A stretch of DNA of 41,020 nt from Chloroflexota bacterium. GTDB lineage: Bacteria; Chloroflexota; Limnocylindria; Limnocylindrales; CSP1-4. The stretch spans positions 1 through 41,020 of the forward strand of contig DAHXON010000010.1 in the NCBI GenBank assembly GCA_027364875.1. The letters run 5' to 3'. Numbering within the stretch: the stretch's first letter is position 1; the number at the start of each line of letters is the position of its first letter. This document shows, piece after piece, positions 3,134-36,393 of the stretch. Below the pieces are notes generated by a model. That model made no database searches. It saw nothing but the letters and a program-made list of their open reading frames with translations, and had not been told where the DNA came from. The position numbers and the translations under genes were made by a program.

Positions 3134-3209
3134 GGGGATGTAGCTCAGCTGGGAGAGCACCGCGTTCGCATCGCGGGGGTCAGGGGTTCGAGTCCCCTCA
3201 TCTCCACCA
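3134..3209 (+). tRNA. tRNA-Ala (anticodon CGC)
   Basis: Cloverleaf folds by eye. Acceptor GGGGATG (3134-3140) pairs with CATCTCC (3199-3205) with one G-U; the D arm contains TAGCTCAGCTGGGAGAG; the anticodon stem CCGCG/CGCGG encloses loop TTCGCAT with anticodon CGC at 3167-3169 (codon GCG). The T arm has GGGGTTCGAGTCCCC. ACCA (discriminator plus CCA) at 3206-3209 is encoded. Confidence 0.97.
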
Positions 3210-21671: not shown

Positions 21672-21701
21672 TTGACCGACCCCGCGTGTCTCCGTCATGA
21701 T
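21672..21701 (+). promoter_or_regulatory. Candidate promoter of cysE-cysK
   Basis: TTGACC (21672-21677), 18-nt spacer and CATGAT (21696-21701) form a reasonable sigma-70 promoter. Transcription from about 21708 would give a leader of roughly 230 nt before the cysE start. Confidence 0.5.
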
Positions 21702-21707
21702 TCATGC

Positions 21708-21850
21708 GTGACTTCGCATTCATTCGCCTGCTTCTGTCCCCGGCGGCCCCGCCGCAGGAGGTAGCAGGCTGCGTCGCGCTCCCTGAGGGAGCCCGGCGAA
21801 CCAGTCCCGGGGCCGCGGTCATGTCAGAACCGCGGCCTTCTTGTTTCCTC
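21708..21850 (+). promoter_or_regulatory. Structured cysE leader ending in an intrinsic terminator
   Basis: Leader contains CGGCG-GCCC-CGCCG, the perfect hairpin CTCCC-TGA-GGGAG (21779-21791), then terminator stem GGCCGCGGT (21811-21819), 9-nt loop, ACCGCGGCC (21829-21837) followed by TTCTTGTTT. No + strand gene precedes it; the neighbouring genes point away. A terminator between promoter and cysE therefore suggests attenuation by a riboswitch, T-box or similar. The segment GCCCGGCGAACCAG recalls the SAM-I core, but I cannot fold the whole aptamer. Confidence 0.55.
21811..21847 (+). terminator. Intrinsic terminator in the cysE leader
   Basis: Perfect 9-bp GC stem (21811-21819 with 21829-21837) directly followed by the T-rich tract TTCTTGTTTCC. 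It lies about 90 nt upstream of the cysE start codon, and no gene upstream on this strand needs it. Confidence 0.7.
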
Positions 21851-21937
21851 CCATCGGACACGCCGCGTCACCCAACCACGGCGAGACGAGAGCTGCCACC
21901 CCGCTCGCCGCCGCACCAGCTTTCTTTCGAGGCACCG

Positions 21938-22825
21938 ATGGTTCTCCCGCTCAGATCCCTGCCCAACACCAAATCCAATCAATCGGCGGATCCGCTCGAC
22001 GGGCTTGCCGAGCGGCTTCACTCGGTCTTGGCCGACGACCAGGGCACGCATCTGGCCAAGACCAGGGTCACGGCCTGGATCCGTGCGCTCCTCGACACGC
22101 TCTTCCCCCAGACGGCGGAGAGGACGTACGCGACCGCGAGCGAAGTCCGAGACGCCCTCGACCGTTCGGCGGCCGAGCTTCGATCGATCCTTCGACCGCT
22201 CGAAGGCGAGGTCGAGGACCCGGCGGAAGTCGCCCGGCAGTTCTTCGCGTCGCTGCCCGAGATCCATCGCCAGCTGCTCATCGACGCGGCGGGGATCGAG
22301 CGCGGCGATCCGGCGGCGGAAAGCGTCGACGAAGTTGTCCTTGCCTATCCCGGGTTCCTGGCGATCGCCGTCCACCGGATCGCCCACAGACTGCACGAGC
22401 TCGGCGTGCCTCTCATCCCGCGAATGCTGTCCGAGTGGGCGCACGAGCGGACCGGCATCGACATCCATCCCGGCGCGACGGTCGGCCACCCGTTCGTCAT
22501 CGACCACGGGACCGGCGTCGTGATTGGCGAGACGGCCGAGATCGGCAACAACGTCAAGCTCTACCAGGGCGTGACTCTCGGCGCCCTGTCGGTCAACAAG
22601 AACCTCGCATCCACCAAGCGCCATCCGACGATCGAGAGCGACGTCGTCATCTACGCCAACGCCACCATCCTCGGCGGCGAGACCGTGATCGGACGGGGCA
22701 GCGTGATCGGCGGCAACGTCTGGATCACCTCCAGCGTCCCGCCGGACTCGATCGTCTACCAGCGCGCGGAAGTCCATGTCCGGCAGGGCCGGGCCGATTT
22801 CGAGGATTCCGACTGGGTCATCTGA
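21938..22825 (+). CDS. cysE: Serine O-acetyltransferase
   Basis: 295 residues, slightly longer at the N-terminus than typical CysE. An alpha-helical N-terminal domain (about 1-160) is followed by left-handed beta-helix hexapeptide repeats: GIDIHPGATVGHPFVIDHGTGVVIGETAEIGNN, with the catalytic His in IDHGTG and IHPGA. It acetylates serine with acetyl-CoA to make O-acetylserine, the substrate of the enzyme encoded next. GAGG precedes ATG 21938. An ATG at 21821 falls in the terminator loop and is unlikely to be the start. The pair cysE-cysK are 82 bp apart and probably one operon, controlled by the leader. Confidence 0.93.
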   Translation: MVLPLRSLPNTKSNQSADPLDGLAERLHSVLADDQGTHLAKTRVTAWIRALLDTLFPQTAERTYATASEVRDALDRSAAELRSILRPLEGEVEDPAEVARQFFASLPEIHRQLLIDAAGIERGDPAAESVDEVVLAYPGFLAIAVHRIAHRLHELGVPLIPRMLSEWAHERTGIDIHPGATVGHPFVIDHGTGVVIGETAEIGNNVKLYQGVTLGALSVNKNLASTKRHPTIESDVVIYANATILGGETVIGRGSVIGGNVWITSSVPPDSIVYQRAEVHVRQGRADFEDSDWVI

Positions 22826-22907: not shown

Positions 22908-23849
22908 GTGGCCAAGGTCAACAGCGCGCTCGAGCTCATCGGCAACACCCCGGAGCTGCGCATCAACAAGCTCTTCGATTCCCGGGTGGAAGTTTGGGCC
23001 AAGCTCGAGCGTCAGAACCTGGGTGGCAGCATCAAAGACCGTATCGCCCTGTCGATGGTCGAGGACGCGGAGCGGCGCGGGGTCATCGGCCCCGGCAGCG
23101 TCATCGTGGAGCCCACGTCCGGGAACACTGGCGTCGGATTGGCCCTCGTCGCCGCGGTGAAGGGCTACAAGCTGATCCTCGTCATGCCCGAGTCGTTCTC
23201 CGTGGAGCGGCGCAAGCTCATGGCCGCCTACGGCGCCAGCTTCGAGCTGACGCCACGCGAACTGGGCATGAAGGGCGCCATCGCCAAGGCACAGGAGATC
23301 GTGGCCGCAACGCCGGGCGCCTGGATGCCGATGCAGTTCGAGAACGCCTCGAACCCGGCCGTCCACCGCCGCACCACGGGCCAGGAGATCCTGCGCGACT
23401 TCCCCGACGGCCTGGACTTCATCTTCGGCGGAGTTGGGACGGGCGGCCACATCACCGCCGCCGGCGAGGTTCTGCGGCAGCGCTGGCCGAAGCTGCAGGT
23501 CCTCGCCGTTGAGCCCGAGCTTTCGACGGTGCTGAGCGGCGGCACGCACAGCCCGCATCCGATCCAGGGCATCGCCGCCGGGTTCGTGCCCGGCAACTTC
23601 CACGCCCCGGCGGTGACCGGCTACGTCCAGGTTTCGGCCCAGGACGCGTTCACGTACACGCAGCGCGCGGCGAGGGAGGAAGGGCTGTTCGTCGGCATCT
23701 CCTCCGGGGCCGTTCTCGCGGCCGTGGCGCGGAAGCTGCCGGAGATCTCCGACGGAGCCCGAATCCTGGCCTTCACCTACGACACGGGCGAGCGGTACCT
23801 CTCCGTGCCTGGCCTCTTCGACATTCCCGAGGCCGTCACGGTGGCATAG
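22908..23849 (+). CDS. cysK: Cysteine synthase A (O-acetylserine sulfhydrylase)
   Basis: 313-residue PLP enzyme that makes cysteine from O-acetylserine and sulfide. K43 in LGGSIKDR binds [14 protein letters not shown] is the substrate/asparagine loop, [13 protein letters not shown] binds the phosphate, and ISSGAVLAA closes the site. The GTG start at 22908 is supported by the immediate [12 protein letters not shown] start of the family. Length and motifs match CysK. CysE normally forms a bienzyme complex with CysK through its C-terminal Ile; the CysE here ends in WVI, consistent with that interaction. A strong terminator follows. Confidence 0.96.
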
Positions 23850-28342: not shown

Positions 28343-28418
28343 GGGGCTATAGCTCAGCTGGGAGAGCGCCTGCATGGCATGCAGGAGGTCCAGGGTTCGA
28401 ATCCCTGTAGCTCCACCA
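28343..28418 (+). tRNA. tRNA-Ala (anticodon GGC)
   Basis: Acceptor GGGGCTA (28343-28349) pairs with TAGCTCC (28408-28414); D arm TAGCTCAGCTGGGAGAG; anticodon stem CCTGC/GCAGG around ATGGCAT with anticodon GGC at 28376-28378 (codon GCC); T arm CAGGGTTCGAATCCCTG; encoded ACCA at 28415-28418. It differs from the CGC tRNA at 3134, so the two cover different alanine codons. Confidence 0.97.
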
Positions 28419-33678: not shown

Positions 33679-36393
33679 ATGCTGCCGCGACCGGCGTGGC
33701 TGGCAGTCGGAGTCTTGGTCGCCGCCGGGACAGCTTCGTACCTGCCGCTCGGCGGCGACTCCCCCGCCCCGGTGGCGGCGGCCGTGGCAATCACCGGGGC
33801 CCTGGGCGCCGCCGCCACCGGAGCCCATGCCATCAGGCGGCCGCGCCTCGCTTCCGCCCTGAACGTGGCGGCGCTCGGCGCGGCGCTCATCGCCGCCAGG
33901 CTGGCCGTGGGATTGGCCATGGGCGGCGACGCGGGTTCCGCGGCCTCGCCCGCGCACGCTTCCCCGGCCCTGCCCTCCGGAAGCGGACCGTGGCACGCCC
34001 GGGTTGAGAGCGCCCACATCTCCAAGGGGCGGCAGATCGCCACTCTGGCTCTGGCCGAGGCCAATGCTCGCTGCTCCGCCCTCATGCCGGCGGATCCGCG
34101 GTTGCTCGCGGGCGATCGCATCACGTGGAGCGGCCGGATCGAGGCCCTGGGCGACAGCGACTACGAGCGGTTTCTGGCCGCGCAGGGGCTCGACGCCAGC
34201 TGCCAGGCAACCTCGTTCACGGTCCAGGCCCACGACGAATCCGCCGCCGGATGGCTCGAGCGGTTCCGCCAGTCGTCCGGAGACGCGGTCCAGCTCGTCG
34301 TCCCGGAGCCCGGCGGCGGCCTTGCGGCCGCAATCCTGATCGGCCTCCGCGACCGCGTGGACCGCGACGTGGCAGCCGCTTTCACCACCGCGGGAGTGAG
34401 CCACATCGTGGCGATTTCGGGCTGGAACATAGCCATTCTCTCGGCCACGATCGCGGCGATGCTCCGGGGGTTTCTGAGCCGCCGGCGGCGGGCGGCGGTG
34501 ACGGTGGGCGCGATCCTCGCCTATACCCTGTTCGCGGGCGCCTCGGCCTCGGTGGTTCGGGCGGCGGTGATGGCCGTGGTCGCGGTGGGAGCCGCGGAAA
34601 CGGGCCGCGGCTCGCGGGTCAGCGTCGGGCTCGCGTGGGCCATCGCCGGCATGCTCCTGGTCGAGCCCGCGACGGTCGCCGACGTCGGCTTCCAGCTCTC
34701 CGCCGCCGCCACTGCGGGGCTGATCGCCTGGGCCACCCCGATTGGGCACTGGCTGGAGGCTCGCGCGCCTCGCGTGCCGGGCCCCATCCGTGAGAGCCTG
34801 GGAGTCTCGCTCGCGGCCCAGGTTGCCACGCTGCCGATCGTTCTGCTGGTGTTCGGCCGGCTGGCGCTCATCTCCCCGGCCGCGAACCTCGTGGCGGTTC
34901 CTCTTGTCCCGCCGGTCATGGTCCTCGGCCTCGTGGCGCTCGCCGCGGGCTGGCTTCAGATGCTCGGCGCACCGGCCCTGCTGTGCGGTCTCGTCTCGCT
35001 CCCGGCTTCGTTGCTCCTGTCCGCGCTCATGGGCGTGGTCGGGGTGGCGGCCGGCGTTCCGGGTGCGAGCCAGACCCTGCCTGTGCCGTGGAACGTGGCC
35101 GGTGCGGGAGTCGCGGCCGCTGCGCTGGTGGCGGTCGGGCGCTGGTCGGGGAGAGGCGGCGAACAGGTGGCGAGGCGCGATATTCTCGCCGCAGTCCGGC
35201 CGCGGACTCGCGCGAGGGGCGGCGGCCCACGATACGGGCTGCTCGCGGGCGTCGTCGGACTGTCGGTCGTCGTAGCCGCGTCGGTCGTGTCGGCAGCTCC
35301 CGACGGGCGCGTCCATGTCGTCGTGCTAGACGTCGGCCAGGGCGACGCTATCCTGATCGAGGGCGACCGAGGCAGCCGGATCCTCGTCGACGGCGGGCCC
35401 GACGGTCAGGCTCTCCTCGCAAGTCTGGACCGGTGCGTCCCCTCCTGGGATCGGCGACTCGACGCGGTGGTGCTGACTCATCCGCACGACGACCACGTCG
35501 CGGGCCTGGTCTCGCTGATGGAACGCTACCGGGTGGACGCGGCCTACGAATCCGGCTGGCCGTCGAAGAGCCCCGAGTACCTGGCGTGGGTGGACACCCT
35601 CGACAGCCACGGCCTGCGGGCGGTCCGCCTGCGGACCGGCAGCGTGCTGCAGCTCGACGACGTCAGCCTGCGGGTGGTCTGGCCGGACGACGGCACCATT
35701 CGACCGTCATTCCTCGATCCCACAGCCGCGGACAATCGAAAGGCGAACGATTCGTCGATCGTGATCCTTGGCGACTACGAAGGTCGCAGGTTCCTTTTGC
35801 CGGGCGATGCCGAGGAAGACGTCGATTCGACGCTCGTCACGAGGGGGCTGCCGAGGGTCGACATGCTGAAGGTTGCGCATCACGGCAGCGCGACCGCCTC
35901 GTCGAGCGAGCTGCTCGGGGCCATCCGGCCGGCCGTATCGGTAGTTTCCGTCGGGGCAACCAACACCTACGGCCACCCGAACGCCGGCACGATGGCCCGA
36001 CTGGGGAGCAATTCGGCGAAGACGTTGCGGACGGATCAGGTCGGGACGGTGGACGTGGCCCTGGATCGGGCGGGGGTGTCGGTTTCCTGGCAGCGCGGCG
36101 GCGAAAGCGGCGCCGCCGACGGCGGGGAAAGCGGCGCCGCAGGCACTCACGCGCCGATCGGGCGCGGCCCCCTGCCGCCCTCCCCGGGCCCGGCGCTCCT
36201 GTACGATGCCCGCGATGTCCGTTCCAAGCCGGCGAGAGAGCGTGGCGCTGCTCCTCTCACTCGATCCACCCTACTGGCACCTGCGTCATTCGCGTGCCGT
36301 GGCCGAGACCGCGGCCTGGTTGGCCCTGCGTGCCCAGGAAGCCGGACATCCGGTCGATCGCCGCCTCGCGGAGTCGGCGGCACTCCTGCATGA
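33679..36393 (+). CDS. comEC: ComEC/Rec2-family DNA-uptake channel, with unusual extended C-terminus
   Basis: 904 residues. N-terminal helices and an OB-like extracellular stretch (about 1-210), the Competence membrane domain (about 220-520, AISGWNIAILSATIAAML, VSLAAQVATLPI), and an MBL-like domain (about 550-790: VVLDVGQGDAILIE, LTHPHDDHVAG, LPGDAEED, KVAHHGS). It would carry single-stranded DNA across the membrane. The normal end is after VDVALDRAGVSVSWQ; beyond it a Gly/Glu/Ser/Ala repeat and a Pro/Arg-rich tail run to 36393, overlapping the next gene by 188 bp. The tail looks like readthrough after loss or displacement of the stop. Confidence 0.88.
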   Translation: MLPRPAWLAVGVLVAAGTASYLPLGGDSPAPVAAAVAITGALGAAATGAHAIRRPRLASALNVAALGAALIAARLAVGLAMGGDAGSAASPAHASPALPSGSGPWHARVESAHISKGRQIATLALAEANARCSALMPADPRLLAGDRITWSGRIEALGDSDYERFLAAQGLDASCQATSFTVQAHDESAAGWLERFRQSSGDAVQLVVPEPGGGLAAAILIGLRDRVDRDVAAAFTTAGVSHIVAISGWNIAILSATIAAMLRGFLSRRRRAAVTVGAILAYTLFAGASASVVRAAVMAVVAVGAAETGRGSRVSVGLAWAIAGMLLVEPATVADVGFQLSAAATAGLIAWATPIGHWLEARAPRVPGPIRESLGVSLAAQVATLPIVLLVFGRLALISPAANLVAVPLVPPVMVLGLVALAAGWLQMLGAPALLCGLVSLPASLLLSALMGVVGVAAGVPGASQTLPVPWNVAGAGVAAAALVAVGRWSGRGGEQVARRDILAAVRPRTRARGGGPRYGLLAGVVGLSVVVAASVVSAAPDGRVHVVVLDVGQGDAILIEGDRGSRILVDGGPDGQALLASLDRCVPSWDRRLDAVVLTHPHDDHVAGLVSLMERYRVDAAYESGWPSKSPEYLAWVDTLDSHGLRAVRLRTGSVLQLDDVSLRVVWPDDGTIRPSFLDPTAADNRKANDSSIVILGDYEGRRFLLPGDAEEDVDSTLVTRGLPRVDMLKVAHHGSATASSSELLGAIRPAVSVVSVGATNTYGHPNAGTMARLGSNSAKTLRTDQVGTVDVALDRAGVSVSWQRGGESGAADGGESGAAGTHAPIGRGPLPPSPGPALLYDARDVRSKPARERGAAPLTRSTLLAPASFACRGRDRGLVGPACPGSRTSGRSPPRGVGGTPA
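36097..36144 (+). repeat. 24-bp tandem repeat near the end of comEC
   Basis: Units at 36097-36120 and 36121-36144 match at 21 of 24 positions and encode GGESGAAD-GGESGAAG. They lie directly after the last conserved ComEC residues, so slippage may have displaced the original stop codon. Confidence 0.8.

Follow-up and report, generated by a model that had tools for sequence, protein, structure and literature searches.

T-box leaders respond to the charging state of tRNA and regulate termination upstream of amino-acid genes. In other bacteria, genes for sulfur amino acids are attenuated by the SAM-I riboswitch, and those for methionine and lysine are usually controlled by riboswitches, T-boxes or repressors. 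The trp, his and leu attenuators combine a leader ORF containing codons for the product amino acid with an antiterminator opposed to an intrinsic terminator, the position of the ribosome being the switch. Short ORFs with Cys codons also make up the cys leader peptides of mycobacteria, for which a 2005 survey found no conserved terminator; in Actinobacteria that survey detected no leaders with Met or Lys codons (PMC1262725). PMC13236596, citing Canestrari et al. 2020, presents the leaderless polycysteine ORFs of mycobacteria as a case of translation attenuation. A search for attenuators in Chloroflexota, or with Met or Lys codons, returned nothing matching from open-licence papers, the only ones covered, and is weak evidence for that reason.

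Here we describe the leader of cysE in a 41,020-nucleotide stretch (the window; contig DAHXON010000010.1) from the genome of an uncultured Chloroflexota bacterium, probably of the class Limnocylindria; on computational evidence this leader is very probably a ribosome-mediated transcription attenuator sensing charged tRNA-Cys. It resembles the trp, his and leu attenuators in several respects: a short leader ORF contains codons for the product amino acid of the operon, an intrinsic terminator recognized by sequence and covariation precedes the first gene, and an antiterminator overlaps the 5' arm of this terminator and would exclude it; computation further predicts that the position of the ribosome at the regulatory codons decides the outcome. 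In our model the leader would thus work like trp-type attenuation. It differs from those attenuators in that the leader ORF of the cysE type is probably leaderless, the ORF itself contains the antiterminator strand, which codes for an almost invariant Arg-Pro, and a single frame, belonging to no Rfam family, carries Cys, Met or Lys codons. With the mycobacterial polycysteine ORFs it shares a short Cys-codon ORF upstream of cysteine genes, leaderless there and probably so here; however, it has a conserved antiterminator and comes from a different phylum, and whereas the mycobacterial systems lack an intrinsic terminator between ORF and operon, the cysE leader has a conserved one.

The leader ORF and its overlapping RNA elements

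The leader precedes cysE, encoding a serine O-acetyltransferase of the EpsC type (21938-22825, plus strand), and cysK, encoding cysteine synthase A (22908-23849, plus strand), both identified by profile matches and presumably sharing one operon. The cysE product scores 157 bits against NF041874 (EpsC/CysE type; cut-off 150) and falls under the cut-off of the TIGR01172 cysE profile. Elsewhere in the window are two tRNA genes (3134-3206 and 28343-28415). The gene upstream of cysE is divergent, so that, as the earlier note had it, no gene precedes cysE on its own strand. The promoter-like pair which that note placed at 21672-21701 also holds up: a sigma-70-like promoter on the plus strand, with a -35 element TTGACC (21672-21677) separated by 18 nt from a -10 element CATGAT (21696-21701), scores 9/12 (one found against 0.1 expected in shuffles) and is kept in the 20 aligned congeners as TTGAC-18-CAT(G/C)AT.

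Direct reading of the sequence revealed what had been overlooked earlier, namely a plus-strand leader ORF with Cys codons at 21708-21764 (VTSHSFACFCPRRPRRRR*; GTG start, TAG stop, 18 codons), in which the regulatory codons TGC-TTC-TGT (Cys-Phe-Cys) occupy 21729-21737. Its start codon, at 21708, lies 6 nt 3' of the -10 hexamer, and an A/GTG follows the -10 at exactly this distance in every aligned congener (n=20). A transcription start at the GTG, as predicted from the position of the promoter, leaves no room for a ribosome-binding site, and the ORF is therefore probably leaderless.

Each of the 21 examined genomes of the genus has the leader. The alignment comprises 20 cysE leaders, i.e. that of the genome under study and those of 19 congeners with readable leaders; the remaining congener leader, in G005, sits at a contig end and was found by covariance model. 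None of the 20 aligned leaders has lost the promoter, the spacing, Cys-X-Cys or the terminator. The ORF is intact in these (18 or 19 codons) and also in G005, and both Cys codons are invariant, as TGC-NNN-TGT, in 20/20, with C-x-C found again in G005. Its reading frame is preserved across a 3-nt insertion, and Arg is retained despite AGG/CGG and CGC/CGT codon changes, while codons 2, 4 and 5 are highly variable. Within the same 20 leaders the Pro-Arg codons CCC and CGC show no variation at all, silent changes included, which points to a second role for them at the RNA level.

These codons belong to the predicted first strand of the antiterminator, GCGGCCCC (21743-21750, plus strand), which is embedded in Arg-Arg-Pro-Arg codons directly 3' of the Cys codons and was recognized by complementarity and folding. 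Its complement, GGGGCCGC (21809-21816, plus strand), overlaps the 5' arm of the intrinsic terminator (21811-21846, plus strand; identified by sequence, fold and covariation). The latter consists of a stem, GGCCGCGGT (21811-21819) with ACCGCGGCC (21829-21837), a 9-nt loop and the T-tract TTCTTGTTT (21838-21846); a simple terminator scan missed it as loops were capped at 8 nt. Folding also supports the two plus-strand hairpins that had been reported before cysE: the first (21726-21769; GCCTGCT/AGCAGGC with an inner CGGCG/CGCCG) conceals the first antiterminator strand when the ribosome is absent, and the second (21778-21792) has the form GCTCCC-TGA-GGGAGC.

The GC-rich terminator with T-tract, likewise reported earlier, is conserved in the congeners, and its stem shows covariation: 7/11 pairs are altered on both sides, giving 21 double-change cells where shuffles give 6.7 ± 2.2, counts that ignore the relatedness of the species. 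An alternative antiterminator, which the earlier note proposed to look for, exists in the form of GCGGCCCC and GGGGCCGC, all 8 pairs of which are possible in 121/133 leaders as opposed to 4.5% of shuffled downstream sequences; here too relatedness is ignored, and since the species are related the leaders are not independent events. The eighth pair is C:G in 97 of the 133, U:G in 15, U:A in 14 and C:A in 3. In alignment A2, 98% of the antiterminator cells are paired, against 42-53% when the strands are slid, and a search for double changes in the same alignment found none. As the strands are almost invariant within the cysE set, covariation support for the antiterminator comes from the wider family.

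The terminator bears on a reading in which the Cys-codon ORF governs access to the cysE start or the loading of Rho, with the hairpin not being the main switch. This translational or Rho-dependent attenuation has precedents in the leaderless Cys-codon ORFs of mycobacteria, which lack terminators (PMC1262725; PMC13236596), and in a locus of another genus (L021) where a leaderless poly-Cys ORF precedes cysE without a T-tract. Yet we regard it as unlikely for the locus considered here, given a conserved terminator with strong covariation and a T-tract, and a complementary antiterminator positioned to respond to the Cys codons. The L021 ORF itself (1221-1313), which starts 6 nt 3' of a -10-like box (MTTRTRRSARGACCSCPRRAPAGSSASVAH) and is followed by no T-tract terminator before cysE, is possibly a translational or Rho-dependent relative.

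A further pair of complementary segments, GGAGG at the end of the ORF (21756-21761) and CCTCC after the T-tract (21847-21851), is conserved in cysE leaders and many metY leaders. When partners were swapped 50 times, the true partners of this long-range pairing beat all swaps in metY leaders only, and were not favoured in cysE or dapB leaders.

Ribosome position and the computed folding of the nascent RNA

In the attenuation mechanism that we propose, transcription would start at ~21708, at the GTG of the leaderless 18-codon ORF. When Cys-tRNA is plentiful, the ribosome would clear both Cys codons and mask GCGGCCCC, leaving GGGGCCGC free for the terminator, and transcription would end at ~21840-21846. 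When it is scarce, the ribosome would stall at the first Cys codon with its edge just 5' of GCGGCCCC, which could then pair with the emerging GGGGCCGC, block the terminator and allow cysE-cysK to be transcribed. If translation is absent, the first hairpin would hide GCGGCCCC, making termination the default. We infer the transcription start, the leaderless translation and the response to cysteine, including its direction.

Equilibrium folding of the complete leader RNA was uninformative, as the terminator is the most stable fold at every ribosome position tried; antitermination must hence be kinetic, as in trp, and we adopted nascent-RNA folding instead. Here the RNA was folded between the ribosome edge, assumed to lie 12 nt past the beginning of the codon in the A-site, and the terminator loop. 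When the first Cys codon of the pair occupies the A-site, the computed probability of the antiterminator is ~0.9-1.0 in 20/20 cysE leaders, and it drops to ~0 in 20/20 once the ribosome is beyond the Cys pair. Without a ribosome the strands pair little or not at all in almost every species, although in one the value is 0.62. Thus, as computed, antiterminator pairing depends on the position of the ribosome.

Leaders of metY, dapB and cystathionine-beta-synthase-like (CBS-like) genes have a folding profile like that of the cysE leaders. Counting codons backwards from the Arg-Pro codons, the computed pairing peaks at codon -5 for metY and CBS-like genes, at -6/-5 for dapB, and collapses at -3. 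In this model, a ribosome at one or the other of the two regulatory positions has its edge either barely short of the antiterminator strand or barely over it.

A probable class-wide leader family with interchangeable codons

A first covariance model, built from the 20 cysE leaders and run against 177 genomes of the class, recovered all 21 congeners at E<1e-36 together with weaker matches in other genera, the latter being leaders with a common core but different codons. A second model, trained on Cys and Met leaders only (one of them mixed, CVCMC) and on no Lys leader, found leaders in 90/177 genomes, fragmented and of uneven completeness as these are, and, unexpectedly, revealed a class of Lys leaders before dapB. 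Each downstream gene was named from its similarity to a single reference, the references for cysE, cysK, metY, dapB, CBS, OsmC, carbonic anhydrase and reductase being checked by profile.

At -5/-3 relative to the Arg-Pro codons, codon identity follows the downstream gene. Of 120 loci retrieved, 60 were added after the codon pattern had been noted. Both positions are Cys before cysE (20/20) and CBS-like genes (4/4; 24/24 together), Met before metY (55/55 with a readable core) and Lys before dapB (29/29), and no codon-gene crossing occurs among these four kinds of leaders. The metY genes belong to the PF01053 family (O-acetylhomoserine sulfhydrylase-like) and their leaders read Met-X-Met. The smaller sets are more varied: OsmC-like genes have 6 Met leaders, 1 Cys and 1 other, and carbonic anhydrase genes 4 Met, 1 Cys and 1 other, some of these genes adjoining metY; threonine-synthase-like genes have 1 Met and 1 other, and a sulfite/nitrite-reductase-like gene is preceded by a CVCMC leader. 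DUF4395 genes have 2 Cys leaders; in genus g2, family leader peptides with ACCCC stand before a DUF4395 membrane protein (L320 and L354), which hints at a role of this family in sulfur metabolism. The genome under study itself has three family leaders: in addition to that of cysE, a metY leader with Met codons (MNARTFCRRETSRRTLSLRGSMMAMPGRPQSAEALI*; C135 10298-10479, locus L225, G000:C135:9950-12000) and a dapB leader with Lys codons on the minus strand (MVDREFSKPKAKRWRPCPEARP*; C129 34815-34954, L285, G000:C129:32800-35080).

Several other matches were set aside. In the phylum-wide search, those beyond the class are weak (best E ~1e-5), the one inspected (L304) lacked the core, and they were taken as chance; weak matches within the genus (L321, L323 and L324; E>1e-5) are without regulatory codons. 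The cysE leaders aside, a pattern scan of the genome under study for C-x-C-P-R-R-like sequences and a scan of relatives for leaderless C-x-C ORFs both returned chance matches for the most part.

Taken across relatives, these comparisons show, at the level of sequence, that the ORF, its Cys codons, the terminator and the complementary strands are conserved and that codons match genes throughout the family. They also weigh on two further readings. In one, an unrecognized class of metabolite riboswitch or a T-box controls the terminator and the ORF is incidental; the length and structure of this leader, its place upstream of a cysteine gene and its conserved stretches outside ORF and terminator would suit it. 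However, the Rfam covariance search proposed in the earlier note, when run at the gathering cut-off and at E<=5, gave no real family match (only two weak minus-strand matches at E<=5), the ORF is conserved as coding sequence, and a riboswitch leaves unexplained why the codons at two positions track the downstream gene; we consider this reading very unlikely. Thus, of the earlier suggestions, an attenuator before cysE is well supported, as is a new leader class, in the sense of a family unknown to Rfam; the riboswitch or T-box alternative gives way to a leader peptide, presumably translated, as the sensor. The proposed likeness to the SAM-I core is limited to one unconserved string, GCCCGGCGAACCAG, private to this genome, in place of which congeners have CCGCCGAGTCGC, and the SAM-I riboswitch (RF00162) matches neither the cysE leader nor anything else in the genome. 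The T-box (RF00230), from which the leader would differ in sensing through the translating ribosome rather than by direct tRNA binding, has no match at the cysE leader.

The idea that the lineage merely lacks riboswitches holds only in part: among the 21 genomes searched, SAM riboswitches occur in 4 and the lysine riboswitch in none. T-box-like matches under the Rfam cut-off are seen in 13/21 genomes searched, similar ones being present in all 13 genus genomes searched, and the genome under study has two (G000:C110:29912-30144 and 34145-34416), ~4 kb apart.

The other reading, an ordinary promoter and terminator with a chance short ORF and no regulation, appeals to the high G+C content, which makes hairpins common; it is likewise very unlikely in view of the presence of the leader in 21/21 congeners and of a class-wide family with matched codons.

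Regulation by attenuation, as preferred here, likely extends to a lineage-wide family in one Chloroflexota class, in which a single RNA frame would owe its specificity to the codons that occupy two fixed positions. This frame would comprise the Arg-Pro-encoding antiterminator strand, a fixed spacing and a matching terminator, placed before cysE-cysK, CBS-like, metY, dapB and related genes. One RNA frame with swapped codons would represent a natural experiment on how the specificity of an attenuator changes; the family would also provide a rule by which many unannotated leaders of a poorly studied phylum could be annotated, and would suggest how programmable amino-acid sensors might be designed.
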